Part shown: positions 1 through 23,700 of the stretch, piece by piece
How the letters are laid out: the number at the start of each line of letters is the position of its first letter
Position numbering within the stretch: the first letter of the stretch is position 1
IMG/VR virus record: IMGVR_UViG_3300047510_000932
Location: 1 to 37,825 of that record
Source: a virus
DNA: 37,825 bases
Strand: one strand, 5' to 3'
Notes under the pieces: generated by a model
Seen by the model: the letters and a program-made list of their open reading frames with translations, nothing else
The model's database searches: none
What the model was told of the DNA's origin: nothing
Position numbers and translations under genes: made by a program

Positions 1-345
1 AATATTATAACAGAAACATGTTATACTTCTAATTTTGTAAACCTCAGTGAAAAAACTTTTAAACCCATTATATGTAAACGACCATTTTTAATATTGGGGG
101 TACCGGGTTGTTTGCAGCATTTAAAAGATTTAGGATTTAAAACTTTTAATAAATGGTGGAACGAGAGCTATGATTTAGAATTAGACAATGCTAAACGTCT
201 GCAACAAGTTTATTATATTACAGAAAACATTTTAAATACACCGTTTGAAGATTTAAAAATAATGTTAAACGAAATGAATGATATATTAGAACATAACCAT
301 AATCATTTAAATTACGTGTCAAAACACTTAGTTCCATTAATTTAA
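1..345 (+). CDS. Glycosyltransferase-like protein, C-terminal part (cut by window edge)
   Basis: The frame is open from base 1 to the stop at 343-345, so this is the last 114 codons of a longer gene whose start lies outside the window. The translated end carries a block with SEKTFKP, then RPFLILGVPG, then LGFKTFNKWW. It lines up with the C-terminal third of the minus-strand protein at 337-1527 (SEKIYKP, QPFILFSQP, LGFRTF), so the two are paralogs. The pattern of an acidic residue, then EK.xKP, then P.I..G.P, then GF.TF recalls the nucleotide-sugar-binding half of GT-B-type glycosyltransferases such as fucosyltransferase-like families. That link is from memory of the pattern and the substrate is unknown. 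It is the only plus-strand gene seen and it overlaps its converging paralog by 9 bases at the stops. Confidence 0.75.
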   Translation, partial: NIITETCYTSNFVNLSEKTFKPIICKRPFLILGVPGCLQHLKDLGFKTFNKWWNESYDLELDNAKRLQQVYYITENILNTPFEDLKIMLNEMNDILEHNHNHLNYVSKHLVPLI

Positions 346-1527
346 AAATTTAAGTAACTCAAAATAGTAATCTTTATTATTGTTGTATCTAAATTTTAAA
401 TTATCGTAATTATGAACTAAAATATCTAAAAATTCTTTTGTCATGTCGTTTAATTGATTTTTTGGCATCGATAAAACTCTTTGAATTTGAGTTAATGCTG
501 CTAAAAATCGTTCTCTATCATTTTTTATATTATCATAATCTTCATTAATGTATTTAGAATGAAACGTTCTGAATCCCAACTCTCTAAGATATTTTAAACT
601 ATATGGTTGAGAAAATAATATAAAAGGTTGTAAAAATACCATAGGTTTGTAAATCTTTTCGCTAAAAAACATTTGATCTTCAATGTACTCAAAGTAAGTT
701 TCTGAAACTATGTGTAGATAAGAATTTAAATATTTTTCAATATTAAAATCATGTGTTGGATTATCAACTGCTAACTTAACATCATATTCTTTCGGCAAGG
801 TACTTATTAGATTTTTTTTCTGATATTTACGCAATGTTTTATAATTAAAAAAATATTTTTTTTCTATTTGTAGTATTTCGTCTAAATTTACAGCATTATC
901 TCCTATTCCCATAGTTAATATACCATCGTTTCTATAATCATATAGTTCTGTATATAACATTAATCTCTGTGCTTTAGGTCTTCGTTGCAGGCAAATAAAC
1001 TTATGATCTCGTGTTTTATTAGTAAATATATTTTCTAGAACAGTATGATATACAGTTTCATCGTGAAAATTAATAATATTTTCCCAGAAATTATAATAAA
1101 TGTTTTTTATACCCTTTTTTGATTTTTTTATTAAATTTCCTGTAATTAAAATAAAATCAGAATATTTTAAATTATATTTTTTTATAAGCTTATCATTTAA
1201 TAAATCTTCAAATCTAGATAACTCGTATCCTTCTAAAATATTAATGATAAGCAATTTGCATTTTTCATTTTTTATATCGTTTATGATATTGTCTGGAACA
1301 TCAAAATTATAATGATCAGCATAATGAAAAAAGTTACACGACAGATTAATGGGATAAAAATATTTTTTATGAAATTTTTCAGTCTTTATAAAATTGGTTT
1401 TTAAGAGATTAGGGAAAGTATCTAAAAATTTTTCACCAATCTCATAAAGAAGATTATTAAATTTTTTATCTAATCCATTGAATTTATATTCATCATTATA
1501 TGAATCAAAATATAAAGGAATTCTCAT
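337..1527 (-). CDS. Glycosyltransferase-like protein, paralog of the gene at 1-345
   Basis: 396 aa, strongly AT-rich. Roughly residues 274-325 hold the block shared with the convergent gene at the left edge: ETYFEYIEDQ, SEKIYKP, QPFILFSQP, LRELGFRTF. This resembles the donor-binding end of GT-B-like glycosyltransferases often seen in marine phage genomes. I see no DxD motif that I would call catalytic. The N-terminal part (residues 1-120) is Lys/Asn/Phe-rich and not recognisable. There is no signal peptide, so it probably acts in the infected cell's cytoplasm. Its ATG overlaps the stop of the radical SAM gene (TAATG), implying coupled translation as the last gene of the cassette that begins at 6663. 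Glycosyl transfer is inferred from the motif block and from three neighbouring glycosyltransferase-like genes; the acceptor is unknown. Confidence 0.65.
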   Translation of the reverse strand: MRIPLYFDSYNDEYKFNGLDKKFNNLLYEIGEKFLDTFPNLLKTNFIKTEKFHKKYFYPINLSCNFFHYADHYNFDVPDNIINDIKNEKCKLLIINILEGYELSRFEDLLNDKLIKKYNLKYSDFILITGNLIKKSKKGIKNIYYNFWENIINFHDETVYHTVLENIFTNKTRDHKFICLQRRPKAQRLMLYTELYDYRNDGILTMGIGDNAVNLDEILQIEKKYFFNYKTLRKYQKKNLISTLPKEYDVKLAVDNPTHDFNIEKYLNSYLHIVSETYFEYIEDQMFFSEKIYKPMVFLQPFILFSQPYSLKYLRELGFRTFHSKYINEDYDNIKNDRERFLAALTQIQRVLSMPKNQLNDMTKEFLDILVHNYDNLKFRYNNNKDYYFELLKFLN

Positions 1528-3038
1528 TATAATTTTTCTCTAATGTTCTTGCAAGAAGAATAAAAATTTTCCATTTCAGGAAAAGTTTTAAGAAAGTTTA
1601 ACCCTCTTCTGCTGTCAATTTGTTTAATAAAATCATAAAATTTTGCTTTATTTTTAATGTCATCGTTTTTGAGATACAACCTGTTTTCTATTATTCTTTT
1701 AAATTTTTCTAATTCAAATTTTTCAAATCCTAAATGTAATCTATAAGGATCTTCACTAGTATTATCTATCATAAAATTTAAACTTGGTATCATATAATTT
1801 AGTAAAAGCTCATCGTCGCAAAGCTGAACATCTAAAAATTCAGGATGTCTTAGATAAGGAATATCAACGCTAACTCTAATATCATTTATGGATTTTTTAA
1901 TTTTACTTTTTCTCAAATCATAACCTGTATTGTTATAAATTATGTCTCTTTTAGGGTTGTAGTTATATTCTTTTTTAAGCTCTAAAATCCATTTTAACAA
2001 ATCTGTAAAACTAGTAACAGCTAAAATGTTATATGTAGCCATTACAGTGCATTTTACAGAAGTCTTTTCTAAAAGCTCTTCAAAACGAGATTTTACTAAA
2101 TTAAAATCTAAGTCTGTTCTAGCGTATTCTGCTTTTTCTCCCCAGCTTTCTATGCTAGTATAAACTGTTATCTTTTTAAAATTAGCAGATTTTTCTAACT
2201 CAGTTATTTTATTTATAAAATTATCCCATATTTTTTGTGGAACACTTAAATTTGTGTTAATACTTAATTCTAAATCCTGTTTTGGGTTTTCTATTAAATA
2301 ATCTAAACTTTTAAGTGTGTTTTTATTAAGAAGAGGTTCACCGCCAGTTATTCTATAATGTTTTAAACTAGGATAAATTTCTGGAAACCATTTCCAAAAT
2401 GCTTCGATATAAGGATTATGCTCTCTATTAGGAATCGATATAGTATCTAAATCTTGCCAACCTTGTGCCCACTGAACACCACCATTACCATCGGTAATTT
2501 TTATAGGACCTTGCTGTTTTAATTCTTCAACCCATTTTGTGCTAAATTCGGGGCCGCAATATACACATTTTAAGTTACAAGCATTTCCAAAGCTTACCTC
2601 TAGATATGAGGGCTTAAAAAACTCTTCTCCTGTAGAATTTACAATAGAGTCGTATTCTTTGATTGCCCAATCTTCGCTGCTCTTATAATGTCTATCACTA
2701 GGATTTTTATTATCTTCAATTCTCCAACAATAATCACATTCGTTAGGACGAACACCGTTGAGCATTTCTTTTCTAGCAGCTTTTAAAACTGTAGTATTAA
2801 AAAGCGCAGCTGGATTTTTTTCTAACTCGTCTAATGGAATTTTGTGCTGTCTAGGATGATGACAGCTATGTACTAATCCTGAACCTAGATGCATAGTTAC
2901 TTGTGTAAATTTTGCTAAACATAAACTAGGGCTTATTGAATTAAGACCTTGTGTAACATTTTCTAAGTTATCAGAATTTTGAATTACCTTACCATTAGTA
3001 TCGATAACTAAATTTAAATCTTTAAAAGTTTTTTTCAT
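1527..3038 (-). CDS. Radical SAM protein with additional N-terminal cysteine set (twitch/SPASM-like)
   Basis: 503 aa. The radical SAM 4Fe-4S motif CxxxCxxC is clear as C154, C158, C161 within ACNLKCVYCG, followed by the SAM-binding TGGEPLL segment near residue 232 and a typical beta/alpha core to about residue 350. Before the core lie C40, C59, C101 and C104 (the last two as ECDYCW), which look like ligands for a second iron-sulfur cluster of the SPASM/twitch kind but placed N-terminally. Family knowledge: such proteins use a 5'-deoxyadenosyl radical to modify peptides, sugars or other small molecules. The substrate here is not evident. It lies between glycosyltransferase-like genes, which suggests sugar or glycoprotein modification (inference). 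A 65-base gap separates it from the upstream gene; its ribosome site is weak. Confidence 0.88.
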   Translation of the reverse strand: MKKTFKDLNLVIDTNGKVIQNSDNLENVTQGLNSISPSLCLAKFTQVTMHLGSGLVHSCHHPRQHKIPLDELEKNPAALFNTTVLKAARKEMLNGVRPNECDYCWRIEDNKNPSDRHYKSSEDWAIKEYDSIVNSTGEEFFKPSYLEVSFGNACNLKCVYCGPEFSTKWVEELKQQGPIKITDGNGGVQWAQGWQDLDTISIPNREHNPYIEAFWKWFPEIYPSLKHYRITGGEPLLNKNTLKSLDYLIENPKQDLELSINTNLSVPQKIWDNFINKITELEKSANFKKITVYTSIESWGEKAEYARTDLDFNLVKSRFEELLEKTSVKCTVMATYNILAVTSFTDLLKWILELKKEYNYNPKRDIIYNNTGYDLRKSKIKKSINDIRVSVDIPYLRHPEFLDVQLCDDELLLNYMIPSLNFMIDNTSEDPYRLHLGFEKFELEKFKRIIENRLYLKNDDIKNKAKFYDFIKQIDSRRGLNFLKTFPEMENFYSSCKNIREKL

Positions 3039-3074
3039 ATATTATTTTATTTCCGTTTTTTAATAGATAAGCTA

Positions 3075-3095
3075 GATCTGTAAAACTTATAGATC
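3075..3095 (-). other. Small inverted repeat between two cassette genes
   Basis: A 21-base near-palindrome, GATCT at each end, lies in the 65-base gap between the stop at 3104 and the start at 3038. The arms pair over nine positions with one mismatch on the transcribed strand and a 3-base loop. No T-run follows in the transcribed direction, so it is not a standard terminator. It might be a processing or attenuation site, or chance in AT-rich DNA. Confidence 0.3.
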
Positions 3096-3103
3096 GACAT
3101 CTA

Positions 3104-4024
3104 TTATAGTTTTTCTATAAACTTTTGGTATGGAATTCTTGTAGGAATTTGATAAACTTCTTTAAAAAATTTACTTTGTTGCTCGTTTAATGGGTTTTCT
3201 GATATTGGAATATCTAAGTTTGTTATCAGCTGTTTTCCGTAATCTATTATAATTTCTAATAAATTATCTTGTGTTATATTTTTTTCATTCCATAGAGAAT
3301 TTAAATATTCAAAATCTCTAACTTGTATGTAATCCCAGTCGGTGCACATTGTTTTAAACAACCCTTCTCGAGCTCCATAGATTGCCCATAACCCGTTTTT
3401 AACATCAGAGCCTACCATCGACCATATATATGCCCAGTGTAAACATCTCCAGTGATTATTTTTAAATTTTTCTTTATCTATTCGAATTCCTTGGTCAGTT
3501 GCAAGTTTTACCCCTTCTCGAAATCCTGCTCTCCAGGCTTGTTGAGGAGTTTCGTTGTTGTATACGTCTGAGTAACAACTGTTCATTTGAATATATTGCG
3601 CATCCCAACAAAAGTCAACTTGTGCATGAGCATTATTAATGTCAGCATTTTCATGAGTACGCATATTAAGAACATATTTTTTAGGCCATAATTTTAAACC
3701 ACCATTACCATACATAAGTCCATTAATTGTGTTTTTTCCGCACCAACTAATAACTGTATTGGTTAAATCAGAATGCTCTTCAAAATCTATTTCTTGATTC
3801 AAAAACTCTTCTCTTATACGATTATCACCGTCAACTGTGATAAATCTATCAGTTTCACTTAGTTCTGCACATGCTTTGTGTGCAGCATCTGAACCTTTTA
3901 CTCCGTGAACACGTTTAGCCCAGGGAACTTTCTTGCAAAGATCTGCATAGTTGCGTTCAGCATTGGGTTCATCATAACTTAGATAGATAATATCGTAGTC
4001 AATTATTTTAATTTTTTTTGTCAT
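3104..4024 (-). CDS. DxD-containing glycosyltransferase-like protein
   Basis: 306 aa. It opens with a beta-strand segment (IIDYDIIYLSYDEPNAERNY) followed by a KRVHGVKG segment and then FITVDGDNRI, where D65-G66-D67 sits at the position of the metal/nucleotide-sugar-binding DxD of GT-A folds. Downstream are a WCGKNTINGLMYGNGG segment and several conserved-looking Trp and Cys residues. I recognise this architecture as a glycosyltransferase-like family common in marine T4-like phages, without a known acceptor. It starts inside the stop of the upstream 205-aa gene (ATGA overlap), so translation is coupled. No signal peptide or membrane segment is seen. The call rests on the DGD motif and the GT-A-like N-terminus; donor and acceptor are unknown. 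Confidence 0.68.
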   Translation of the reverse strand: MTKKIKIIDYDIIYLSYDEPNAERNYADLCKKVPWAKRVHGVKGSDAAHKACAELSETDRFITVDGDNRIREEFLNQEIDFEEHSDLTNTVISWCGKNTINGLMYGNGGLKLWPKKYVLNMRTHENADINNAHAQVDFCWDAQYIQMNSCYSDVYNNETPQQAWRAGFREGVKLATDQGIRIDKEKFKNNHWRCLHWAYIWSMVGSDVKNGLWAIYGAREGLFKTMCTDWDYIQVRDFEYLNSLWNEKNITQDNLLEIIIDYGKQLITNLDIPISENPLNEQQSKFFKEVYQIPTRIPYQKFIEKL

Positions 4025-4638
4025 CCTACAACCTTATAAGCATACGAGTCAAAATACTTGTTTGTGTATATACTTACATCTCTACCGTGAAATTCAAAAT
4101 CAAACTTGAATGGAATTTTTACTTCTTTTTCAATTAACATCTCTAACTCGATATAGAGAGTTCTATATAAGATATTGGGATCGTCTTTTTTTGTAACACT
4201 TAGCAAAATTTTGTCATACAAAGAAAGACCGTGTTCTTTTACAAATTCTAAAGTAGTATTGTCTATGGAAATATTCCAAGTACTGTTTTTAAGATTTTGG
4301 ACTATAATTAAGTCTGCAGACTTACTGCTGTGTTTGGGTATTTGATATAGAACTTTATCATAAGTTGTTAAGGAATTTTTTTCGTTAATATGTTTTAATA
4401 TTACTGTTTTAGTTGCAACGTCATACGCAATTTGATAATCACCTGTCTTTTTTTCTCCAGTTAAAAAAGATTCTGCTGCTTTACGTTCAATTTCTAAAAT
4501 TTCATATTCAGTAACTTCTTTACGTGAAGAAATTTTATGAATAGTTCCTTCAGTTTTGTCGTAATAGATATAGGCTAAATTTGCCGATTGTGTATCAATT
4601 TTTATTTTTTGGAACAAAGACTGTAAATTATTTGTCAT
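4021..4638 (-). CDS. Protein of unknown function in glycosyltransferase cassette
   Basis: 205 aa, not recognised. The sequence alternates short beta-like stretches (ANLAYIYYDK, DYQIAYDVATKTVILKH, STWNISIDNTTLEFV) with one charged helix around residues 42-60 (EILEIERKAAESFL). It has no cysteines, signal peptide or transmembrane segment. The C-terminal part (FDFEFHGRDVSIYTNKYF) looks like a beta-sandwich edge. It overlaps the upstream glycosyltransferase gene by 11 bases and the downstream one by 4, so it is embedded in the operon and probably made in step with its neighbours. An accessory or acceptor-binding role in the glycosylation cassette is possible but only from context. Confidence 0.7.
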   Translation of the reverse strand: MTNNLQSLFQKIKIDTQSANLAYIYYDKTEGTIHKISSRKEVTEYEILEIERKAAESFLTGEKKTGDYQIAYDVATKTVILKHINEKNSLTTYDKVLYQIPKHSSKSADLIIVQNLKNSTWNISIDNTTLEFVKEHGLSLYDKILLSVTKKDDPNILYRTLYIELEMLIEKEVKIPFKFDFEFHGRDVSIYTNKYFDSYAYKVVG

Positions 4639-5473
4639 TTAATCTTTTCCTATACTTTTCTTTAGCATCTGTAACACTTACAAAGTCTTTTTCAGTATAA
4701 TGAAATATTCCTGTTTGTTGATAATTACCAATTTTTAGATTACATTCGTCATCTAAGTATGCACTTATTGTTCGTTGCCAATTATGTGATGACATTTCCC
4801 AATTTTGAACACGAGACTTCATGTGAACAAATGAGGGTATTAACGTTTTTGTATTTGTAACTAAGTGTTTGCAATCTAAAAGTTCTACTGCGATAGCAGC
4901 ACACACATCCATACTAGCAAAATCAGGAGTATTTTCTGTTAAAAATATACTGTAAAATTTTTCCCAATTTTTAAACACAATTTCTAAATTGTCAAAGAAA
5001 TTTTGTGTAAAATTAGACTTTTTAAAATAATAAATTCCAGTGTACAAGTTTGGCAATTTATTATTTGTAAAAGTTTTTCTATAGTAATCGTCGGAAACTA
5101 TCTCGTTACGATAAGTTAAAACATTTGTAGTAAAAAATAAATCATAGTTTTTAAAATATTTCCACCAATGATCGATATTTTCTAACACAATCATGTCTGT
5201 GTCCATTACAATAGTTTCATCGTACGGTGTAGAATAGTAAACTTTCCATCTGTTTTCAATTTTCCAATCACTACTAACTGCAAGATCGTCCCAAGGAATT
5301 TCAATTATTTTATCAAAAAGTTCTGCATCGTTTTTTGAAATTTTATCGTTAGTAATAATAGAAATCGGAAGATTGGGATTAGTTAGTTTTAAACTGAGTG
5401 CTAGCACTATTGCTTGTTCTACATAATTAATCTTATAATTATTTTGTGCAACAATTACTATACCTTTAGACAT
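4628..5473 (-). CDS. GT-A-type glycosyltransferase (tandem copy 2)
   Basis: 281 aa. It starts with a Rossmann-like strand-helix-strand (MSKGIVIVAQNN, then PISIITND) and carries IVMDTDMIVLEN with D91-T92-D93. This is the DxD motif that binds Mn2+ and the nucleotide sugar in GT8/glycogenin-like enzymes. Residues around 120-140 (LFFTTNVLTYRNE) and 155-165 (LYTGIYYFKKS) fit the acceptor side of that fold. It is a clear paralog of the next gene upstream: same MSKG start, same N(N/S)x(K/Q)I(N/D)YV(E/K)Q segment, same PISIIT strand. It begins within the last codons of that gene (8-base overlap). A soluble cytoplasmic enzyme adding a sugar to an unknown acceptor is the best reading. Confidence 0.8.
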   Translation of the reverse strand: MSKGIVIVAQNNYKINYVEQAIVLALSLKLTNPNLPISIITNDKISKNDAELFDKIIEIPWDDLAVSSDWKIENRWKVYYSTPYDETIVMDTDMIVLENIDHWWKYFKNYDLFFTTNVLTYRNEIVSDDYYRKTFTNNKLPNLYTGIYYFKKSNFTQNFFDNLEIVFKNWEKFYSIFLTENTPDFASMDVCAAIAVELLDCKHLVTNTKTLIPSFVHMKSRVQNWEMSSHNWQRTISAYLDDECNLKIGNYQQTGIFHYTEKDFVSVTDAKEKYRKRLNDK

Positions 5474-6317
5474 GTTCTATATCCTGTTCATCGATTACAC
5501 GTTGTAAACTTAGTTTATTCATAACATGTACATTTAAATTGTCAGTCTTTAAAAGTGTATATTCGCCCAGTCTGTCTTCTTTGCTTACTAAAAATGTCAT
5601 AGCAGTGTCTTGATGTTTTATTAAAATATCTTTGTCTGTTATGTAATATATTTTACCAGGCAATTTTTTTGCAAAATTACCTTTTTGAAATCCGTTCATA
5701 ATATGAACAGCTATACTGAAGGCGTAGTCATTTCTATAAATAGTGCTAGGTAATCTATATACACGTACATAATGATCCCATTCTTCTTTAATGTGTTTTA
5801 CTAAATTAAAAAATATTTTGTTTTCTTCTGTTTTTGTAAAATAAACTGCTGTGGCCCAATAAAAATCAATGCCTGTATCACTTACTCGACTAAATTCTAC
5901 TGTATTTCTAACTTGACTAAGATCGTAAGAATCTTCATAGATCATAAAATCATTAGAAGAATTAAACACAGATTTTAATAGAGTGTTGTTTATAATAAAG
6001 TCAGTGTCTAGCAGTAACGTTTGATCATATGGGGTTAAATCATAAGCATTGATTCTAGTGCCGTTTTGCCACTGTACTATTTTTTGACTGTATTCTCCGT
6101 CAAAAAGAATTCGTCGATTGTTGTCTTTTTGTTGAAAATTAATTATTTTATCAAAAATTGAAAAATCAAAACAATCTTTTAAATATCCAGGACTATCAGT
6201 AATAATACTAATCGGAACATCTAAAAATTTTTGTATTCTTTTAGCAAGATACACAGATTGTTTTACATAGTCAATTTGACTATTATTGTTTGCTATTAGC
6301 AGGACACCTTTACTCAT
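5466..6317 (-). CDS. GT-A-type glycosyltransferase (tandem copy 1)
   Basis: 283 aa. It has the same plan as the following gene: MSKGVLLIANNN, IDYVKQSVYLAKRI, PISIITD, and TLLLDTDFIINN with D104-T105-D106 as the metal/nucleotide-sugar-binding DxD of GT-A enzymes. Between the PISIITD strand and the DxD it has a longer charged segment (about residues 60-95) than its paralog, so the two probably differ in acceptor or donor. Further on, FYWATAVYFTKTEENK matches the position of LYTGIYYFKKS in the paralog. It overlaps the 117-aa gene upstream by 8 bases (ATGAGTAA) and the next gene by 8 bases (ATGTCTAA), the same junction design twice, which fits a tandem gene duplication. Confidence 0.8.
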   Translation of the reverse strand: MSKGVLLIANNNSQIDYVKQSVYLAKRIQKFLDVPISIITDSPGYLKDCFDFSIFDKIINFQQKDNNRRILFDGEYSQKIVQWQNGTRINAYDLTPYDQTLLLDTDFIINNTLLKSVFNSSNDFMIYEDSYDLSQVRNTVEFSRVSDTGIDFYWATAVYFTKTEENKIFFNLVKHIKEEWDHYVRVYRLPSTIYRNDYAFSIAVHIMNGFQKGNFAKKLPGKIYYITDKDILIKHQDTAMTFLVSKEDRLGEYTLLKTDNLNVHVMNKLSLQRVIDEQDIEHV

Positions 6318-6663
6318 GATTGATTAATTTTTCAACACTTCTATTAGATTTTAATTTACTATAATCATAGTAATATTTGTTTAAAGCTTGAAAGTATTGA
6401 TCTTGAATATCTTCTAAAAACTTAGATAGATCTGTAATAGAAACAGGTATTTCGTTGTCATCTACAAACACAGTATCAGTAGTAATATCTTTTTCTACTA
6501 ACATGTTAGCATAATTAATTAATTCTATACTAATAGTAAATTGACTACCATTATAAAAATAAATTAAGCTTTCTTTGAATTGCTCTTGTAAAACTCTACG
6601 TTGATTTGAAAGAGTTTTCATATAATTGGCAAATTCTAATGCTTTTTCAAGGCGCTCGTCCAT
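6310..6663 (-). CDS. Conserved small phage protein, first gene of the cassette
   Basis: 117 aa, Tyr/Leu/Lys/Glu-rich, mostly helical by eye: an N-terminal helix (residues 1-30, MDERLEKALEFANYMKTLSN), a short strand pair (LIYFYNGSQFTISIELI), a second beta segment (DTVFVDDNEIPVSI), then a long C-terminal helix with many Tyr (YFQALNKYYYDYSKLKSNRS). I remember similar short proteins in marine T4-like phages but know no function. The start is firm: GGAGGT at 6668-6673 sits four bases before the ATG. It is the promoter-proximal gene of the operon running to 337 and overlaps the first glycosyltransferase by 8 bases. Confidence 0.78.
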   Translation of the reverse strand: MDERLEKALEFANYMKTLSNQRRVLQEQFKESLIYFYNGSQFTISIELINYANMLVEKDITTDTVFVDDNEIPVSITDLSKFLEDIQDQYFQALNKYYYDYSKLKSNRSVEKLINHE

Positions 6664-6724: not shown

Positions 6725-7726
6725 TTAAAGTGTAGATATATTTGTACCTGTTGGCAAATCTGCCGTAGGTATTACTACAGTATCAGTTACTGTACCGTTA
6801 ATATTAACTGAGCCGTCAGGCTGTAGAAGTTTAAGAGCGCTAGTAAAATTGCCTAACACAGGCTCGTCGATACCAAAAGTAAGATTATTAGGAAGTCCGT
6901 CCTCAAACTCTATTCTAAACTGTAGTTCTCTATCATTAAGCTGTAGTGCTCTAATATAATAATGATTACGAGCGTAGGTTGCGCCGCCAGTTTGATCATA
7001 ACATAGCTGATATGTTGATGTTAAATTATAATTTCCAATTGAGTAACTTGAACCAATACCGTTATTAGACACTGTCTGATTAGCTTTAAAACTAATAGTT
7101 CCCATGGCATTTAACTGGGTTTGCCAATCTAAAGTCTTTTGTTGTGTTCCTGTGTATGCAACAGATGCATTAAATCTTATTTCGCCGCCTGCGTTAAAAA
7201 ATTGTCGTCTCTGTTGCGCATCATCAAATGTAACTTTTACAATGTGTACAATAGTACCATTCCATGATCCTTGTGTGGCAAATACTCGTGTACTGGCTAC
7301 TGGAGCTCCTGCTGTTGTAAGAAGATTTACTTCAGCAGCCTGCGTAGCAGCATTTATTAAAAGTCTATCTGTTTCTATATTTGTTGCTAGAGTTTCTAAT
7401 GCCTGAATATATGCTAGTTCAATTATATCTGCGCTAGGATTAGTAGCAAAGCCGCCTTCTACAAAAGGATTTATGGTAGTAGCACCAGCGCCAACTTGAT
7501 GAACTCGTAAACGTATTAAGTCAATATAAAGGTTTTCGTATTGTTCTGCTGTAACTTTGTCAGTTGCTAATCCGTTAGTGTTGAAATTTCCCACTACGGC
7601 TGTAGTAGAAAACGCCTGGCCATATCCATAATTAGGTGTAGATACTACAGAATTTCCTAATATTTTATTTACTAAAGTTCTAAGCGTATTATATCTGCTC
7701 GCTGCTATAGGTATAGTTGTGGACAT
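6725..7726 (-). CDS. Virion structural protein, paralog of the gene at 7776-8705
   Basis: 333 aa, low in Cys, rich in Asn/Thr/Gln/Ala and beta-strand patterns, typical of tail or fibre components. It aligns along its length with the 309-aa gene just upstream: RYNTLRTLVNKILGN vs RLNNLQARVELILGN, YGYGQ vs QNGYGQ, RLRVHQVGAG vs RARIHQVGPG, SWNGTIVHIVKVTF vs PWNGLIVHEVQVNF, RRQFFNAGGEIRF vs RRHFFNTGGEIWF, and SIGNYNL vs SIGNYDL. This pair-type protein occurs in marine T4-like phages; no biochemical role is known to me. It has its own late promoter box (7744-7751) and a good AAGGGG ribosome site (7733-7738). It is the last of the structural genes before the glycosyltransferase cassette. Confidence 0.8.
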   Translation of the reverse strand: MSTTIPIAASRYNTLRTLVNKILGNSVVSTPNYGYGQAFSTTAVVGNFNTNGLATDKVTAEQYENLYIDLIRLRVHQVGAGATTINPFVEGGFATNPSADIIELAYIQALETLATNIETDRLLINAATQAAEVNLLTTAGAPVASTRVFATQGSWNGTIVHIVKVTFDDAQQRRQFFNAGGEIRFNASVAYTGTQQKTLDWQTQLNAMGTISFKANQTVSNNGIGSSYSIGNYNLTSTYQLCYDQTGGATYARNHYYIRALQLNDRELQFRIEFEDGLPNNLTFGIDEPVLGNFTSALKLLQPDGSVNINGTVTDTVVIPTADLPTGTNISTL

Positions 7727-7775: not shown

Positions 7776-8705
7776 TTACGACAAAGTTGAAGAATTAAAA
7801 TAAGACGGTGCAGGTACTTCTACATAATCGCCTATTGCACGGTATTGTCTAACTGTGCTTTCAAGTCTTCCATCAACATTATTATCAACATTATTATCTA
7901 CAACTACATCATTAAACTCAATACGGAAGACTATTCTTAAATTGCCGTCTAATCTTGCTTTAATAGTGTAAATATTACCTGCATATATTGCACTGTATGT
8001 GCCAGAACCAATTTTTTGATAAATTATTTGTAATGATCCGTTTAAATCATAATTACCTATGCTTGACCCGCCGCCTGTGGTTGAAATTGTTGCGTTAGCT
8101 CCAAACTTTATAGTTCCTACTTGACTGCATAGCTGTGCCCAGTCTAAACCTTTTGGAGTAGTAGCTAAACTGTTATTAGCTTGAAACCATATTTCGCCGC
8201 CGGTATTAAAAAAATGGCGTCGTTGATCTTCAGTAGTAAAGTTAACTTGTACTTCATGTACAATTAAACCATTCCACGGAGATACTCGAACGCTGCTAAT
8301 AGCAGGCTCGATTGCTGCTTGACTAGGATGTATTATAAGCTTATCAGCTTCAATTTGAGTCATTAGACGTTCGAAATCGGCAATACCCTTTTTGGTGCCA
8401 TCAGCATCAACACTGGTTATTCCAGAGTTGTTAACAAAAAAGCTAGTTTCTTCGGCAATTACATTTAAATTTTGTATTACTTCAGCAATACCTAAATCTC
8501 CCGGACCAACTTGATGAATTCTAGCACGTATCATGTCAGCATAAATGTTATTTAAATCGTCTGCTTCTATAGTGGTGTCGCCGTCATTGAGAACGTTTAC
8601 ACTAGCTATGGTTTGTCCATAGCCATTTTGGCCGGCACCGTTACCGAGTATAAGTTCGACTCTTGCCTGTAGATTATTAAGTCTTGCTGCTGTGATTTCT
8701 GTCAT
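7776..8705 (-). CDS. Virion structural protein, paralog of the gene at 6725-7726
   Basis: 309 aa, with an N-terminal helix (TAARLNNLQARVELILG), a YGQ turn, the RARIHQVGPG segment near residue 55-65 and a C-terminal beta-rich half (WNGLIVHEVQVNF, FFNTGGEIWF, SSIGNYDLNGS, IVFRIEFND). These blocks repeat in the 333-aa neighbour, so the two arose by duplication. Near residue 270 it carries DNNVDNNVDG, made by a 12-base tandem duplication that the paralog lacks. Translation starts at an ATG just after the stop of the fibre gene, with TAAGGAAT (stop and Shine-Dalgarno combined) upstream. No late box lies in the 9-base gap, so it is probably co-transcribed with the 492-aa gene. Likely a tail or fibre-associated component; exact place in the virion unknown. 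Confidence 0.8.
   Translation of the reverse strand: MTEITAARLNNLQARVELILGNGAGQNGYGQTIASVNVLNDGDTTIEADDLNNIYADMIRARIHQVGPGDLGIAEVIQNLNVIAEETSFFVNNSGITSVDADGTKKGIADFERLMTQIEADKLIIHPSQAAIEPAISSVRVSPWNGLIVHEVQVNFTTEDQRRHFFNTGGEIWFQANNSLATTPKGLDWAQLCSQVGTIKFGANATISTTGGGSSIGNYDLNGSLQIIYQKIGSGTYSAIYAGNIYTIKARLDGNLRIVFRIEFNDVVVDNNVDNNVDGRLESTVRQYRAIGDYVEVPAPSYFNSSTLS
7872..7895 (-). repeat. 12-bp in-frame tandem duplication
   Basis: Two perfect copies of a 12-base unit (plus strand ATCAACATTATT) follow each other, plus a 3-base remnant. They encode DNNV twice in the 309-aa structural protein. Being a multiple of three, copy-number change would alter length without breaking the frame. Confidence 0.85.
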
Positions 8706-8714
8706 GATGATTCC

Positions 8715-10193
8715 TTAAACTTTTAGTACACATTCTACTAGTTTTTCGCCCTCATCATTGTTTGTTTCTAATGCAATTCCAACTAAACCGTTTGTTGTTA
8801 ATGTCGAAGCAACACCCGCTTCCCATGCATACACTGCTTGCCCTTTTTTAACTGGTCCTAATACTCTAACCGGAACACGGCCTTTAAGACCGATTGCTTG
8901 CCCTTCAGCATCGCTGTTCATTAGATATGCAGGGTTGTCTGAAATAACACCGATAGCTAAATCACTGTTTTTTGCTGCTCTAGTTTCAGCAGTGCCGCCT
9001 ACTGCCATTACAGTTCCAACTGGGTATTCTTGATCGGTTGTATATTTTTCAGCAAGATCAGCATAGCGTGCCTGTGTTGCTGTACCTTGAAACAGATTAG
9101 CTGCTAAATTACCTGTAGGATCTCTTACTGCTACACTGTTATTGGTAGCACTGACGCTAGCTGTACGGAAATCTGATCCTACTCTTAGTGCAGTTGCCCT
9201 GCTTGCTTCTCCGATGAAGTTTAAGGCATGTATTTCTTTCCAGCGTATACTGGTTGATCCCATATCAAAAGCGTTATCAGCAGCAGGTAGGAAACCAACA
9301 GTACTAAATGCAGCAACATGAGTTAATACGCCTGATCCGTTAGTAGTTTTAATTTTTACTATACTGCTTTGTCCGCTAACATTTTGTATAACACCTTCAG
9401 TACCATTTTCAACAATAAGTTGAAAATCTTGACTGTCGCCGATTGTGAGTCCAGTATCACCAAATTCAACTACACTATCAAAACTAACTCCTGATTTTTG
9501 TACAAATTCAGAAGCAGCAACACCGCCGAGTTTTTCAGCATTTGATGCCGTACCCCAAAACCTAAAGTCTCTTCCGGCAACACCTGTGCTATTTGTTACA
9601 CCTGCATCAGCAAGTTGTGTCCATTTGAGCGTGATACCTTTTTTAATTCTGTTAAACCCAGTAATCGGAGTACTGGCATTTAAGTCAAATTCATTAGGAC
9701 TTATAACAAATACAATTTCATCTTCTATTGTCGATACAATAACACCTCTAGTAGCGCCTGTAGAATCTAATACTTCACGACTCTGCATTTGTGTAACGCC
9801 TTCGCCTGCGTTTTGTGGTCCTATTAGTATATAACTAACTCCATTATACACATACAGTTGATCGTTAGCACTGTCCCACCAAAAATCACCTATAGCTAAT
9901 CCAGTAGGCTCAGTTGTGGCTATTTCGGCGCCGCCTGTAGTACGGAATTTAGTACCATCATAAAACTTTAATTTACTATTAGCAGTGTCAAACCAAATTT
10001 GACCGCTTAGGGGTCTAGCGGGCTGGTTAGCTCCTGCAAAGTTTTCTAACAGATAAAGAAAGTTTTCGTTCTGTATTTCGCCATATCCGGCATAGTTTTT
10101 ACCTATAAACTTTAGATCAGTTGTCTGATCTATTGTTCCGTCTTCAACTACAGTCAGTAGTGTATTATTGTATCTATCAATTTGATATGCCAT
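8715..10193 (-). CDS. Tail fibre-like protein with shared N-terminal module and ADLAEKY-type C-terminal domain
   Basis: 492 aa. Residues 1-220 form the module common to the three fibre genes here: LLTVVEDGTI, GKNYAGYGE, NFLYLLENFA, GQIWFDT, LKFYDGT, GDFWWDS, then FRFWGTASNAEKLGG. Residues about 230-370 are beta-rich shaft with NAFDMGSTSIRWKEIHALNF. From about residue 376 a distinct tip starts at ADLAEKYTTDQEYPVGTVM and runs through AIGVISDNPAYLMN and LKGRVPVRVLGPVKKGQAV. This tip resembles C-terminal domains of many phage appendage proteins, including the G2/IMC autoproteolytic type, but I cannot show cleavage residues. Expected role: virion fibre or adhesin contacting the host, trimeric if like its relatives. 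A late box and AGGGG ribosome site precede it. Confidence 0.82.
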   Translation of the reverse strand: MAYQIDRYNNTLLTVVEDGTIDQTTDLKFIGKNYAGYGEIQNENFLYLLENFAGANQPARPLSGQIWFDTANSKLKFYDGTKFRTTGGAEIATTEPTGLAIGDFWWDSANDQLYVYNGVSYILIGPQNAGEGVTQMQSREVLDSTGATRGVIVSTIEDEIVFVISPNEFDLNASTPITGFNRIKKGITLKWTQLADAGVTNSTGVAGRDFRFWGTASNAEKLGGVAASEFVQKSGVSFDSVVEFGDTGLTIGDSQDFQLIVENGTEGVIQNVSGQSSIVKIKTTNGSGVLTHVAAFSTVGFLPAADNAFDMGSTSIRWKEIHALNFIGEASRATALRVGSDFRTASVSATNNSVAVRDPTGNLAANLFQGTATQARYADLAEKYTTDQEYPVGTVMAVGGTAETRAAKNSDLAIGVISDNPAYLMNSDAEGQAIGLKGRVPVRVLGPVKKGQAVYAWEAGVASTLTTNGLVGIALETNNDEGEKLVECVLKV

Positions 10194-14789: not shown

Positions 14790-14797
14790 TATTTATT
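14790..14797 (-). promoter_or_regulatory. T4-type late promoter box overlapping the giant gene's stop
   Basis: AATAAATA on the minus strand, followed by CAGTAT. The TAA stop of the giant gene (14793-14795) lies inside the box. It is 16 bases upstream of the ATG at 14773 and would allow the fibre genes to be transcribed apart from the 15-kb gene. Confidence 0.58.
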
Positions 14798-17700
14798 CTG
14801 GTAGCTCAGTTGTGCCTGCACGCAAGAATCTTGCTATGCTATTTTCCGCAGTTGACAGCGATTCGCCCAATCTAGTCCAAGTTTGACCTATCTTTTTGAC
14901 AACAGTGATTTTAGCTTCATCGGCAGGCACTGTATCTAGTACAACGTTTCCGTTTTCAACTGTAAACTCTGCAGGTTGTTCTACATCACCTGCAGGGCTG
15001 TCTAGAGCAAGATTAGGATCAAACACTGTGATTGCTGCTTTTCTTAATCTAACTCCACTTACAAATACTTCTATTTCGTTAGCGTTGTTTACTCCAAAAC
15101 TAACAGCAAATGTGTCTGTTACACCGTCGGCTACAAAGTTTTGTACCAGTGTTTGATCTTTGTAAGGCACAGTTTTTCCTACGTTTTGGTCAAACACCTT
15201 TTCACCTGCAGGATGTGTTGCCGGTGTGCCTGTGCCCAGTGTACCTCTACGCAACTGACGCAGTGTGTTGCCTTCTTTTACAAAGTATTCAATACGTTCA
15301 CTGTTAATCCAAACGATTCCCGGCATGTTTTGACCCTTGTTTGGTTCAGCCAATGCAGTTCCGTCAACTAGTTCTATTCTTAGATCGTAGTAGTTCAGCG
15401 GTTGTGCTAGTGCTGTTGCTGCGGTATCTAGACGCTTGAAGTGCGTACGGTTCAACATATCTTTAAACTGACGATATGCAAATCTCGCTACATTTACAGG
15501 TGTTGTAAAATGTATTACATCAATCACATCATTAGCAGCAGGGGTGCGTACTAGTCTTAGTTTAGTTCTGTCATTGGTTACGTAGTAGTCAACACTAGGT
15601 GTTAACAGTTCGCCGTTTACTGCTACCCAAACATACTCAGCATCCACTGCTGGTGATCTTAGTGTGATTTCTCCTACTGTTAGTCTGTTGTAGGTTACAT
15701 ACTGTATGTCTTCTGGTATTAATGTTGTTCTGGCAACCACATCATAGTTAATTCTTTCAATGCCCAACAAATCATGATTGCTAAACTGATATATCTCAAC
15801 TACAGTACCATTAGCAGGTGCAGTATTAAGTGTTACAGTTTTATTAGAAATTCTATAGTCGCCGTCTGCAATTACATAAAATTCTAAAAGATCTCCAGGT
15901 ACACCTACTTCATCTGATAATATAACTGAACTGTTATTAATATCTAAACGCCACTGTACTGGAGCTGTAATCTCTATGCCGTTTAAAAATACCTTCACTT
16001 CAGACACATCAAGTGAACCTACAGGCTGTTGGAATGTTTCTAGTGCATATTCTCTGTCGCCCGTGCTTGGTATAGTAAACTGTAGATTGTATCCTGCGTT
16101 TAGTATTGAGTTGCCTACTTTAACAAGTATGTTGTGTTCGTTAGGCTGAGCATAGAACGGAGCAGTTAGCAGTTCAAACTGAGTATCTGTACCGTTGGCT
16201 GTAAATGAGTCTTTGACTATTTGACTGTAGTTTACTTCTGTGCTATTATCAAATACAACCCAATATATTATATCACTTGCTGCGGTCGGTGTGTCGAATC
16301 TAAATGCAGTTCTATTGTTAACACTATTTCTAAACACTAATACAGCCTGTTGTACACCATTCACGGTGACATACACATTAGCATTGTCTGTCCATTCAAC
16401 TGTAGTTACATAATCAGTTTGACCTTCTACAGATGTAAAGAATCCGTAGTCCATGATGTTTTGAGTGCCAAGACCAACAGTAACAATATTCAGTTCTGCA
16501 CCATTGATTGGGTTTAATATTTCAACTGTACGATTAGTCCAGTCTATAGTATACTGGTCTGCTGGTAATATTACATTGTTAAGTTTTACAATCACACTGT
16601 TTTGATTGCCGGGTATAACACCTAGATCATAAACAGTAACGGCACTGTTCATAATGTAGCTTTGGCTATAGATCATGCCTTGGCCGCTACTCTCTCTAGT
16701 ATAGACTTTGATATCCAGTGTATCAAGAACTTGTCCTGGTACTAGTTCTTCTGGACCGCTTGATGTTGTAGGTGTAACAAAACCGTCACCGTCTATAACA
16801 ATCTCTTCCGGGTTAACGCCTCTAGCTGTTTGATATGCTAAATCACCGCCTGACAGTGCCATATCATAGCTGAGAGGATCGGGTATTACACTGCCGTCGC
16901 TAGTAACTTTTCTTACAATCAGTATGTCGCCGTCTAACAATGGTATACCTAGATCGTCAAGATCGATAACCGTAGTTACACCGTTGCCTGTTATGCTATT
17001 AGTTACAGCATTTGGATTTGTAGGTGTTCCATTGTTATAGCTAGGATCGTCTAATCTTACACCGTTCTTATAAAGGTTGTAGACAACGCCGTTAGTTAGT
17101 GGTTGTGATAGTTCGACTGTTATAGTAGATCCATCTGCTACAAATACTTCATCTTCAAATGTGTTATCAAAGGTATCCCAAGTGTCTGTGTACCATCCTT
17201 GGCTATCCCATCCGCTCGGGCCGCCAAAATCAAATCCACGTACTTCAACACCACCATAGTCTACACCGCTCATTAGCTGTGCTAGATCGTTACCTAACAT
17301 ACCTGCAACAGGAGCATAAGCAAACCTAATACGGTCTTCAGCTCCTAGCATACTTAACGGCTTGTAGTATTCAACTGTTATGGTTGCACCACTGGCAGGA
17401 GGACGAGCAAAAGTTATGCGACCTTTTTGGTAGCTGTAACCTTCTACTAACTTTTGTGTTCCAGGACCTGCTGCGCTGGTTATATTGTTATACACAAAAT
17501 CTTTAGCTAAAGATTCAGCTGTTGGCAAATAGTCTACATTCTTGTAGCTGTATTGACTTCTTAACTGTTCAGTGCCGTTTACATATACTTTAACTTTTCT
17601 ATTATCAAGATCCATTGGCCATTCTAGATCAAATACAGATCTTACATTTGAACCTGTGAATGTTTCTGTTTCGGCTAGATCTTCAAATGTGTAAATGCCT

Positions 17701-20700
17701 GCTGTTCTGTCAAACTTGATTCTTATTGAAGGTGTTCTTACCAGTCCGTTGCCTAGTATGGCACTAGCTAAGGCCGGTACGCCTGTGTCGTTCTGCGGTC
17801 CTTCTATTACTACTCTAGGTGTTGTAATATACCCTTGACCCGGATTGGTTACTTCAATCTTAGTAATGCGTCCATAACCTAAGTATGCACGAGCTGTAGC
17901 CCCAGTGCCTTCACTGCTTTCTAAGCGTATTTTAGGTTCGCCGGTATATCCACTGCCAGGATTAGCTATGCGTATTTCTTTTACGCCATAACCTATGTTA
18001 TCCGCCCAATGCTTGCGTGGATATTCGTTAGCAAGAGAATTGGCACCAAACAATACACCGTCACGTATAACTGCACGACTAGCTTCTATACGTTTAGTCA
18101 ACTCATCATAGTAAGGTGCATTATCAAAGTCTGTTACACTGCTGTTGGTATTGTCTAGACTGTTATACGAACTTACAAACTCTCTTATTTTGGTGCTGTA
18201 TGGTTTTACTTCTTCGACATAAGCTTGATAACTAGGTAGCTTATTGTTTTCAAAATTTATCTTTTGTTCAAGCGCACCTAGATTATGTTTAACATTCACA
18301 AAACTAGTTTTGAACATCCAATCAACTCTTGGCTGTTCTGCTAGAATATAACGCAAGCTTGCAAAAAACAGTTGATTGTATTCTACAGCAAGATCAGTAA
18401 TCAATATGTTGTCACGCAGTGTTTCTAGTATGATTCTCAACTCTTTGGCAGGATTATTATCATAGAACCAGCTGTCAAAGCTGCGATTATCAAATCCGAC
18501 TGTATTCTTAGAATAATCATACAAGCTGTCTTTAAACTGTATTGTACCATTTTGACGACCTATAGTCTTATAGTTTATGGTATAATCTTCTGTACGCTCG
18601 CTGGCAACTTTTTCTAACAGCAGCCAGCCGCCACTACCTACGTTTTTGATCTTTACTATATCGCCTACTAGATCATCTAGACTGCTCAATAGATAAGCAC
18701 CATCAACTTCGTAATCAATGTTTGTAAACTGATTGTAGCTTTCTGCATACCAGTCAACATAGTTCCAGTACAAGCTTACATCGTAATCTTGTAGGCTGCT
18801 TCTAAACCATGAGTTAGTGTTGTTGTTCCATGAGTAAAGTGCCCATTTACCGTTTAGTGTTTCATCACTATTTACTAGGACAGTGAATCTTCTTACGTTA
18901 ACTAGTGTGTTTTCGTCATATCCCGAACCGTCATTAACTACTTCTGCTGCAATTACTTGTCCTAGATTATTAATTGTTAGTTCAACTTCTGCATTTACTC
19001 CGCTGCCAACTATTTCAATGCTAGGAGCAACTTTGTACCCGCGTCCGCTTTCTGTGATGTCTACTCTAATCAAACGACCATTCAATACTACAGGTCTCAG
19101 TCTAGCAGGTGTTACTTTGTTTGTACTTACAAATCGTAGATCAGCATAAGTGTCAACTGACAGATCATACAATTTTGTAGCTGTAGATGGCTGTGGTTCT
19201 TTTTCGAACAGTCTGTCAATATCATATTGATCCACTATTAGATTTTGAGATATTACAAGATTTACACGCTCTATAGCTTGCTTGAGTGCTTCTATGCGAT
19301 TTACAAACATGCCCTGTCTTGGACGATTCTGTATACCATAGCGTTTAGCAGCCGGTATGTTTGGATCTGGTACAGGTCTGTTGTTGGTGTCAACACCTAT
19401 CAAGCTATCAAACCACTTGCGTTCAACGTCAGGATCTGGTCTGCTGCGGTCTAACCCGTCTGACATCAATAGGTACTGCGCATGTGTGTTTTGTTCTTTT
19501 TGCGGTCCTGTGCTATAACGTATGTTTAGTACTAAGTCATCTGAAGTTACTAGATTTTCAAAGTTGTTTACTACAAACTTATTTTCACTTAGGAAGCTAA
19601 CAAATCTATAGCCTTGTTCTCTTGGTCTAGCAACTAGATTAGCCATTTCAAAAGTGCTAATAAGTCTGTCTCTGCTTACTGGTACAGTTTTCTTATTCTG
19701 TACCCAGAAGTAATATTTGACACTAAAAGTTTGGCCAACATCGTCATAAGTTAATCTAGCACTATATTTGGCGTCACTATAAACAGATGTACCACTTATT
19801 GCTCTATCAACTCCTGCATCAGTGTCTGCTAGCTGATCCCATTGACTCGGTAGTAAATCGCTTTCTACCCATTCGTAAATGTCAATAGTTGCTGCTGGCA
19901 TCAAACGGTTCCATTCGTTCTTTTGGAACGCAGTTGATCCTTGATATGGGAAAGCAAATCTAGCAGTATTAATGTTCCACCAAGTTTGGCCTACGTGTTC
20001 TGCACCCCAGTATCTTGAAGGATCAACTGTTGTGTCAGTTAAATCGCCAACATTGTATACCGCAGGATCAAATCCTATCTTGTAAGTTAACTCTTGTTCT
20101 ACAACACCCGGGATCTTGCCTTGTATTGGATCAACATAATCAATGTAACTAACAATCTGATTAGTACGCTTGTTGTAAAGGAATATGCCTTCTATTCTAG
20201 AGATGTCAACAGGTGTAACACTTGATCTTAGTGTATTCCAAGCATAAACACCTTTTGGCTTTCTGTAATCAACTACGATACCTTTTGAAGTTTCGTTAGA
20301 CGCATGTGACGGCACACCCACATAAACATGATTATCATTAGCTAACAGTGTTTCACCAAACTCTGACTGTGCAGAATCGTAGCGGAACTGTTCGCTATAA
20401 ACTAATCTATTGTTAAGTTCTTCAAATATATAAACTACACCTGTATCTAGTTTAATGTTTCTAAAATTAGTAAAGTTGTTGTCAAACACAGTTGCGCCGC
20501 TGTCAAAAGTAGCAGGTATTCTTTGATCGCCATTTAAACTAGATACTACAAGGTTATCTTCACCAAAACTAATGTCATAACCAAACTGTTCACTTTCTTC
20601 ATTGTTTGGCGGTGTTAATGTTTGACTTAACACAAACTCGCCGTCTACTTGATTGTAAACATACACTTGACCTTGATTAGTTTTTATAACATCATCTAAA

Positions 20701-23700
20701 GGAGCACTGATAGCAAACTGTGTTCCGCTCGGACGTATGCTAATTTTTCTTGCCCAATCAGTTGTGTTTTGTAATTCAGGAGCATCAATGATTTGATCCA
20801 ACAGGTATTTGTCGCCAGTTTCTCTGTATACCAATACCTTAGTTTCACTAGTGCTGCTGGCATTAACTAGTTCAGCAGTGATTACGATAACTTGTGCATC
20901 TCTGCTTACATCAAATGCGTTGCTAAACTGTGCAATATTAGTTACTGGATCAAACACATCTTCATTGTAAGCATTTACACCAGTTAGATTTGGTAGATAT
21001 CCTACATAATCAATCAACTCACTAAGTTCTTGCCATAGAGCAGTATTAAATGGTTCATCTGCTGCTATGTTAGTCTGTGCTTGATAGAATTTACTGTTGT
21101 ATCGTACAATACTTCCTGTTGCATATCCGTAGCTGTTATCCCAGTCACCTCTGTAGTTGACATCTTTTCCTCTACGCCAGCTAATATTATTCCAATAGAT
21201 TGGATCTTGTATTCTGTTCTCAGTCTCTGACACATTCTTTCTAGCAACATAGTATTCATCTTTGTAGATTACTATATCACCTTGTGAGTAAGCAGTAAGT
21301 TTATATTCTCCACGGAAACTGTCGCTAGGTTTAGTACCGTGACGGAATATTTCTACGCTGCCAGGATGATCTCTACTGCCATTTCCTATGCTTGACACAA
21401 ACAGTGTATAATAGTTGTTGACCTGTTTAATTTTAACAGTTTTACCAAACCCTCTGTTTGCAGTTCCGTATTCGCTTACAAACAGCTTTTTAAACCTGTA
21501 TCTGCCGTCTGGTAGTTTGCGGAATATGGCCACTGCGCCTTCGCCTGCAGGTCCTGCTGTGCCAAACTCATCAGCAGGAATGTGGTAGACCTGTGTATAA
21601 TCCTTGTTGAGGCTGAACGGTGTGTTAGGTTCACGAGCTATACCTGATTCTACTGTTTCGTCAAAGAAGAAATATTCTTCATCTACTACAGGAGGAATAG
21701 CATTCCATGCTCTTGTATCTGTAAAGTTTACTGTGTTTTGGAATACTATGAGTTTACCAACCTGTGCTGTTCCTACCACAATATCATTATTAGGAGAGTT
21801 AACAGTTCCCATAACACGATCGACATCACCCGGTCCTCTAATTGAGTTGTTGGCATTGCGTCTTATTTCGTAACGACCAATATTGTTTTGTTGTGCCCAC
21901 GTGCCTGAGAGAACTTTTACATAAACTCTGACGCTGTTAAAGTTGCGCTGTAAGTAAACAACTTCAGCACTACTAGTTGTTATGCTAGTAAGAGCTAGGC
22001 CGCCTGTGCCGTCTCTAGGAGTTTGAACGTCTTCAATTATGTCTCCTATTTGAGGTTCAAAAGGAAAACCACTAAAGTCAAATCTCGTAAATTCAAAATC
22101 AATGTATCCGTCCCACAGATCATAGACAGTTTGTGTTTTGTTAGTAACAGTGTAGTTTCCAGTAATACCAGCAAGATCAAGTGTGTTGGTTAAGTCTCTG
22201 TTATCAAGATCATACATGCGGAATTCAAAACTGTCTCCTGCTGTCAATGTATCAGTAAAGATTTTTCCAGCTCTAACAACCCAAAGATCTGAAGGTATGT
22301 TTTGTTCTGTTCCGTTCACACCGTCTGCGCCTGCAGGGTCTCCTCTATAGGCTAACTGAGTTACAAAACTAACTCTATCTCTGTTTAAAACATAGTTACC
22401 TATAACACCTATAGTATCTTGAACATTATAGTAAGCATTTAGCGATCTAGTAGATCCTTGTAGTCTTACATCAGCATATACAAGTCCACGACCTACATCA
22501 TAATAACGACCGTTGTTTGAATAGCTAGGTGTTTCTATATACCAAAAACCGTCAATTGTATCACTAGTATTGTAAGTGTCTTCTTCTGTATAAAACCCTA
22601 CAAAGTCTACTGCTTGTATAAACAATTCGCCACTAATATCAAATGTACCATTGGTATTTTTTAGATAAAGAACTGCACTATCTCTTTTAGTGCTTACATA
22701 AAACACTTCTGCTTGACCAGTATCCGTAGTTACAATATCGCCAACACTGGGTAGTGTAACAAAAGTTTCTACAAAAAATACATGATCTATTTTTTCTATA
22801 ATTTCATGATCTTGTTGTAAAAACTCTGGTGTTATTTGAGGTATTACTCCATCAAACGGAAGAAACACATCCAGTGTTGGGTAAGCATAACTACGTCTGT
22901 TCCAAAATAAGTTTATAGTATCACCAGCTTTAGTGCCTAGATACATGTCTTTAGGAGCACGAACTAACAAGTGATCAACAGTATTGTCTTCAAGCCCTGG
23001 ATCACCTGCTACTAGCAGTGTAAGGCTAGTAGAATCTACGTCTGCACTGTTAGCAATGTTAACGTAGGTATCAAATGTGCTGAACGACTGTGTTGCAATT
23101 TGTGGAAGAATAGTTCTGTTAGCTTTCCACAAGCTGTCACGATATTTTACAATTTCATTTTTGTTATATGTAACATCGGCATCAAAGTTTCCTTTAAATC
23201 TAGTTTTTACACCGCTAGCATCGGGTAATCCTACAACTAAATACTCGCCGTCTTCTGAAACGTCGACACTAGATGCAAATCCACTATTAGTTACAGTATA
23301 GAGATTAGGTTCATCTAGCACTATCTCTTGATCAACGTTGAAGTTGAATGTTTCTTTAGTTCTGCGATAGAAGAATATCTTACCGTTGGCATCACCTGGT
23401 GCTGCTACAAAAATGTTGTTGTTGTCAGGAGTTGCTGCAATGCTTGCACCAAAGTCCTGCACAGTGCTGTCAAAATCAGACAGATTTGATAGAGTTTGAC
23501 GATTTACATAAACAGGTGTGTTTTCAAGAACAGCCCAATCACCGTTGTAGTCATCAACCCATACACGTTGATTGTTGTACAATTTTTCTTGTGCTAGTGC
23601 TGCAAGACCAGTTAGATCGTTAGCTCTTACACTTCTTAGCTTAGTTAAAATGTAGTTTGCTGTGCCAAATGGTGTTATTTCGTTATCTGCAGGAACTTGT

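Follow-up and report, generated by a model that had tools for sequence, protein, structure and literature searches.

A conserved five-gene core with glycosyltransferase-like proteins behind the tail-fibre genes of uncultivated large marine phages

The virus record IMGVR_UViG_3300047510_000932 of IMG/VR, analysed over its whole length of 37,825 bases (the window), carries seven minus-strand open reading frames (ORFs), designated o7 to o1, behind its fibre genes. This locus raises two questions: which of these genes belong together, and what do their products modify? An earlier note, made from the sequence, described all seven as one operon joined by overlaps of 1-11 bases apart from one 65-base gap, a layout that is exact by coordinates (overlaps of 1, 4, 11, 8, and 8 bases; the gap separates o3 from o2). 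The conserved unit is smaller, namely the five genes o7-o6-o5-o4-o3 (6663 to 3104), which are single-copy, syntenic, and located behind the last fibre gene, while o2 and o1 are variable accessories outside this core. The reading tentatively preferred here, held at somewhat below even confidence, is that of a tail-fibre-linked glycosylation island, the core of which would glycosylate a late acceptor located in the cytosol, with the adjacent fibre protein as the likeliest candidate.

Conservation was assessed by scanning viral contigs with o3 and o2 as baits, which returned 160 loci; the structural gene g6 was used as an independent bait against bait bias. The genes o7-o6-o5-o4 lie directly upstream of o3 in 72 of the 77 o3-bearing loci, with three more in which the o4 position is taken by a divergent gene; in o3-bearing relatives, every junction within the core is an overlap. 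This arrangement is far beyond chance. Contigs of sufficient length recovered with the g6 bait show the fibre genes followed by o7, o6, o5, o4, and, in loci that extend far enough, o3. In eight related records of 146-275 kb, o7, the o6-o5 pair, and the core o3 are each present exactly once. Within the island, median identity is highest for o3 (71%) and lowest for o4 (28%). A tblastn search of 50,697 cultured-phage records gave nothing for o1, o3, o6, or o7 and one partial match for o5. The large related records also hold one second o3-family copy each; this shorter protein (~230 amino acids (aa), ~30% identical to o3) is encoded downstream in most relatives, e.g., at G001:118415-119110.

Downstream of o3, gene order and content vary strongly between phages, and some genes are inverted. 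Right after o3, 54 of 70 loci have a radical SAM gene and 8 have one resembling o1; o2 followed by o1, as in the window, stands directly behind o3 in only 6 of 56 relatives. The 65-base gap is atypical for the clade: the distance between o3 and the radical SAM gene that follows it has a median of -1 in relatives and is at most 5 bases in 93% of them. A single seven-gene operon is rejected as the conserved unit because o2 and o1 vary among relatives. Co-conservation, which the earlier note had named as the check on its proposal, with independent occurrence of the genes counting against it, holds for the core, and o2 and o1 occur in part independently. Other genes of the variable region encode UDP-glucose/GDP-mannose dehydrogenase-like proteins (26 of 80 loci), NAD-dependent epimerase, DegT aminotransferase, SPASM radical SAM proteins, and 2-oxoglutarate (2OG)-Fe(II) oxygenase. 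A convergent o1 paralogue, of which the record retains a fragment, matches ORFs in 41 relatives when used as a query, and o1-like copies resembling it lie downstream in many of them. Such strong variation, inverted genes included, would suit an anonymous hypervariable island, a place where genes simply collect and share no product. That explanation is very improbable in view of an invariant core with overlapping junctions, retained putative catalytic residues, and a single copy in the large relatives.

Three core proteins carry the DxD motifs noticed earlier, and all three motifs are conserved. The o5 profile matches glycogenin-1 in the PDB with E = 9e-8 over profile positions 3-106, corresponding to the nucleotide-sugar domain, a sequence relationship characteristic of glycosyltransferase (GT) family GT8. 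Its residues D93 and H258 are each kept in 124 of 125 sequences and the first aspartate of the DxD motif in 116 of 125. The o6 protein is homologous to o5 (hhalign 99.8%, E = 1.4e-27) and retains D104/D106, H264, N267, and K268 in 125 of 125 sequences, while its direct match to a GT8 structure is weak (glycogenin-2, E = 0.19). Both proteins combine the DxD motif with the C-terminal metal-binding histidine of GT8 enzymes. Judged from their sequences, o5 and o6 are likely paralogous glycogenin/GT8-like enzymes, with the alignment spanning only about the first 106 positions of o5 and o6 being recognised mainly via o5.

The third DxD protein, o3, has a secure GT-A fold in its AlphaFold2 model (mean predicted local distance difference test (pLDDT) 90), with D65/D67 kept in 131 of 132 sequences and a YGxG motif conserved throughout. 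Its best Foldseek match is the peptide S-glycosyltransferase SunS (E = 7e-4), and VIA-align gives Z scores of 10.2 to B4GALNT1, 8.9 to ThuS, and 8-9 to ppGalNAc-transferases (ppGalNAcT) and COLGALT1. Protein-glycosylating enzymes are thus represented among the matches by SunS, ThuS, ppGalNAcT, and COLGALT1. Some nucleotidyltransferases reach Z scores similar to those of the GT-A enzymes, and for this reason the model secures the fold rather than the exact reaction. The o3 protein of the window has no match in Pfam, NCBIfam, or PHROG and falls into no curated GT family there; one of 37 relatives touches PF13704 (E = 0.018). The core includes a GT-A family that is absent from standard libraries.

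PDB sequence searches with o3 and o4 gave chance matches only. For o4, modelled with a pLDDT of 88, the best fold match is weak and fibronectin-III-like (Z ~5), no family emerges with confidence, and its BFVD matches are uncharacterised phage proteins; the C-terminal half of the model perhaps forms a fibronectin-III/Ig-like beta sandwich.

By sequence, o2 belongs beyond doubt to the NF033640 (N_Twi_rSAM) twitch-domain radical SAM proteins, scoring 319.7 bits over residues 36-493 and the full model against a curated cut-off of 170 bits; nothing contrary to this placement was found. The additional cysteines mentioned in the earlier note are real features of the family: besides the radical SAM motif CxxxCxxC (C154-C158-C161), the N-terminal C40, C59, C101, and C104 are kept in 136 of 136 members, making seven invariant cysteines. 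This second cluster probably forms an N-terminal auxiliary Fe-S site. To our knowledge, the NF033640 family has no established substrate. The o1 protein displays an F-SEKI-KP--PFI motif in alignment, which may resemble a motif of GT-B/GT10 enzymes. Its description as GT-B-like was not confirmed, the window protein having no Pfam match and 20 family members yielding only two chance-level matches. It is possibly a glycosyltransferase, of unproven class.

What, then, would these enzymes act on? In the proposed mechanism, the core would be expressed late together with the fibres, and o5, o6 (GT8-like), and o3 (GT-A) would work sequentially, assembling a short glycan in the cytosol. The acceptor would most likely be f1/f2, the fibre protein encoded just upstream, with o7 and o4 serving as accessory or acceptor-presenting proteins. 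The o2 protein and other swappable downstream enzymes (radical SAM, dehydrogenase, epimerase, aminotransferase, oxygenase) would synthesise or modify the sugar, and the glycan, like the fibre, would thereby vary between related phages. Synthesis and transfer of a modified sugar, as first suggested, fits the GT8-like pair, the GT-A enzyme, the radical SAM protein, and the nucleotide-sugar genes of relatives; the part of that suggestion which assigned them to one operon does not stand.

The position of the core bears on the choice of target. An f1/f2-family gene lies directly before o7 in 123 of 130 unique loci. As the main alternative, the island may remodel host surface polysaccharide during infection, i.e., the lipopolysaccharide O-chain or core, and thereby block superinfection. 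Cassettes of GT8, UDP-glucose dehydrogenase, and radical SAM genes beside pelagimyophage tail fibres have been read in this way (PMC7029224), and bacterial o3 homologues are found near other GT genes (GT-B in L270, GT2 in L272). However, flippases, polymerases, and membrane-bound GTs are missing from the 545 downstream genes of 80 loci, the core is present once and stays attached to a fibre gene, and its location within the structural block favours late expression, leaving the host-surface alternative rather doubtful. A simple hydrophobicity count likewise found multi-pass membrane proteins (at least four hydrophobic segments) in none of the 545 downstream proteins and none in the core; the same count scores several membrane proteins in a bacterial o3/radical SAM cluster. 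The multi-pass proteins of Gtr-type O-antigen conversion (GtrA flippase, GtrB, and membrane Gtr) are accordingly missing among these 545. Taken together, the lack of membrane proteins and the tie of the core to a single fibre gene tilt the balance toward a virion target but are not decisive.

Several points weigh against fibre glycosylation. Gene adjacency is no proof of target, and lipid-linked glycans at the membrane's inner face are also accessible to soluble GTs. Since f2 lacks recognised relatives among cultured phages, even the assignment of f1/f2 as fibre genes depends on their position. What o4, o7, and o1 do is likewise unproven. A T4-type late promoter signal is not apparent (2 TATAAATA sites against 5.7 expected). 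Finally, similar islands have been interpreted as modifying the host O-chain (PMC7029224).

Hypermodification of phage DNA by glycosylated bases was also weighed. Phage GTs often glycosylate DNA, and a thymidylate-synthase-family protein is encoded in three of the eight large relatives. The other five, which may be incomplete, have the core and no such match, the core is fixed in the tail-fibre block, and we know of no DNA glycosyltransferases in the GT8/glycogenin and o3 families. A DNA target is accordingly quite improbable.

The affinity of o3 to SunS and ThuS, which are its best Foldseek matches, raises yet another possibility: that o3 and o2 together modify a protein or peptide instead of producing a free sugar, o3 acting as a SunS-like peptide GT and the radical SAM enzyme modifying a virion protein in the manner of ribosomally synthesized and post-translationally modified peptides (RiPPs). 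The equivalent site in Sinorhizobium phage Phosso and Agrobacterium phage Atu_ph07 has radical SAM genes beside a protein with a CHxSCHxSCHxS tail, and radical SAM enzymes and o3 occur together in Bdellovibrionota. The SunS match is, however, weak and at the level of the fold, with B4GALNT1 and others equal by VIA-align. The window encodes no cysteine-rich or repeat-tailed precursor, the C-termini of f1 and f2 being free of cysteine, and the nucleotide-sugar genes of the region point to sugar chemistry. Peptide modification is therefore an unlikely explanation.

The Phosso/Atu_ph07 cassette itself is a different one, located behind a fibre gene at L242:22668-30817 (Phosso) and L243:23424-30162 (Atu_ph07) and found among cultured phages only in these two. 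It comprises a cupin-like protein, four (Phosso) or three (Atu_ph07) radical SAM-like enzymes, and a protein of 306/296 aa with the C-terminus CHTSCHASCHSSRSRR / CHSSCHASCHNSRSRR, which looks like a radical SAM-modified, RiPP-like protein. By a count of gene numbers, the cassette may lie at the margin of CDS 170-215, the structural cluster that mass spectrometry showed in Atu_ph07. Homology between the core and this same-site cassette was considered and is unsupported by hhalign, the radical SAM domain excepted.

Homologues of o3 in bacterial genomes occur in Rhodobacteraceae isolates and Bdellovibrionota. In six of seven Bdellovibrionota-type genomes, the main o3 copy lies within ~4 kb of an NF033640 gene above the cut-off; the seventh has such a gene ~2 kb from its second o3 copy. 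These genes number between a handful and about a dozen per genome of 1.8-4.1 Mb, which makes chance an unlikely cause of the proximity, with the reservation that the genomes are related. Nor does the link hold everywhere, as the three Rhodobacteraceae genomes have no NF033640 gene above the cut-off. The pairing suggests a functional tie between o3 and N_Twi radical SAM enzymes. The L285/L286 cluster contains o3, several types of radical SAM genes, and an o1-like gene, with UDP-glucose-dehydrogenase-like and GT2-like genes recognised by eye. More broadly, the Bdellovibrionota-type chromosomes L285, L286, L287, and L288 hold large clusters with several radical SAM families and o3-type GTs, as well as desaturase-, oxygenase-, and sugar-dehydrogenase-like genes. 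Several contigs of metagenome-assembled genomes (MAGs) in the bacterial o3-homologue scan are clearly phage. Fibre genes and the core are present on L249 and L279 (PBPT01000016 and PBPT01000082), L250, L251, L254, L258, and similar contigs; labelled Neomarinimicrobiota, Rickettsiales, Rhodobacteraceae, etc., these look like members of the present phage clade binned as bacteria.

A broader proposal, put forward with considerable reserve and less likely to be right than wrong, is that of a clade-wide machine in which o3 and the two GT8 paralogues glycosylate the fibre, a swappable radical SAM cassette sets the sugar, and the o3/radical SAM unit is shared with Bdellovibrionota. If true, such a machine would give a phage adhesin a variable sugar coat, and o3 with its radical SAM partner would represent a novel unit for sugar or peptide modification common to phages and predatory Bdellovibrionota. 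Many aquatic phages would then decorate their receptor-binding parts with sugar, with effects on host range and recognition. The pairing of o3 with NF033640 in phages and on Bdellovibrionota chromosomes also offers a lead to the substrate of this radical SAM family.

The closest described counterpart is the host recognition cluster (HRC) of pelagimyophages and cyanomyophages, a variable, GT-rich (mostly GT8) island joined to tail-fibre genes that also holds UDP-glucose dehydrogenase and radical SAM cassettes and, in pelagimyophages, lies between VrlC and the neck gene gp14 (PMC7029224). The present locus shares a variable GT/radical SAM island beside tail fibres in the structural block. It differs from the HRC in that (i) a fixed five-gene core stands between the fibres and the variable part, (ii) the o3, o5/o6, and o7 profiles have no match in the type phage HTVC008M (KC465899), and (iii) its structural genes resemble those of PA5oct, Rak2, and Atu_ph07. 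These three profiles also have no match in Phosso, Atu_ph07, or Vibrio phage 2.275.O. The Moraphages (PMC12619734), a group of large aquatic phages whose core genes include four GT orthogroups, are alike in that an uncultivated lineage of large phages has several GTs among its core genes. A precedent for fibre glycosylation comes from mycobacteriophages Che8, Corndog, and Myrna, whose own GTs are described as glycosylating virion proteins (Freeman et al. 2023, cited in PMC12363180), the targets being capsid and tail-tube proteins (PMC12363180, PMC12619734). These are other phages with other targets, and the excerpted accounts mention no radical SAM enzyme or fibre-linked five-gene core. The general kind is thus known, both as fibre-side GT8/UDP-glucose dehydrogenase/radical SAM islands and as virion glycosylation by phage GTs. 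The earlier statement that no described pathway has this exact set holds as far as the tools reach and needs tempering by the HRC; within the same limits, the novel elements are the invariant core of five genes, the GT-A family that the libraries do not recognise, and its tie to NF033640.

Table 1. Features of the locus in window coordinates
Feature	Position	Strand	Description
o7	6310..6663	-	117 aa, conserved small protein, first core gene
o6	5466..6317	-	283 aa, likely GT8/glycogenin-like glycosyltransferase, o5 paralogue
o5	4628..5473	-	281 aa, likely GT8/glycogenin-like glycosyltransferase
o4	4021..4638	-	205 aa, fast-evolving core protein
o3	3104..4024	-	306 aa, GT-A-fold glycosyltransferase family
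o2	1527..3038	-	503 aa, NF033640 'N_Twi' radical SAM
o1	337..1527	-	396 aa, variable-region protein, possible glycosyltransferase
Convergent o1 paralogue, 3' end	1..345	+	Cut by record end; assigned by translation and motif
f1	6725..7726	-	Fibre-type virion protein gene directly upstream of core; candidate acceptor
f2	7776..8705	-	f1 paralogue
f3	8715..10193	-	Tail fibre protein

The record is probably a genome fragment of an uncultivated large marine phage from a clade of T4-like large phages. No tRNAs were found in the window, sigma-70-like promoters are not in excess (46 against 51 in shuffles), and psbA, a marker of cyanobacterial hosts, is absent from the eight large relatives. Upstream of the island lie T4-like tail genes encoding gp25-like, baseplate wedge, and hub/lysozyme proteins, a 5133-aa protein, and fibre proteins. 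Among the latter, f3 matches a PHROG tail fibre family (E = 1.5e-16) and aligns with the fibre of Atu_ph07/Phosso at 100% in hhalign. By the upstream tail genes, the closest cultured relatives are PA5oct-, CBB-, and Rak2-like jumbo phages; by g6 (phrog_11259), a marker common to Rak2-, PA5oct-, and Atu_ph07-like phages, they are Phosso and Atu_ph07. The 5133-aa protein is encoded by a single ORF (14793-30194, minus strand) between the baseplate wedge gene and g6.

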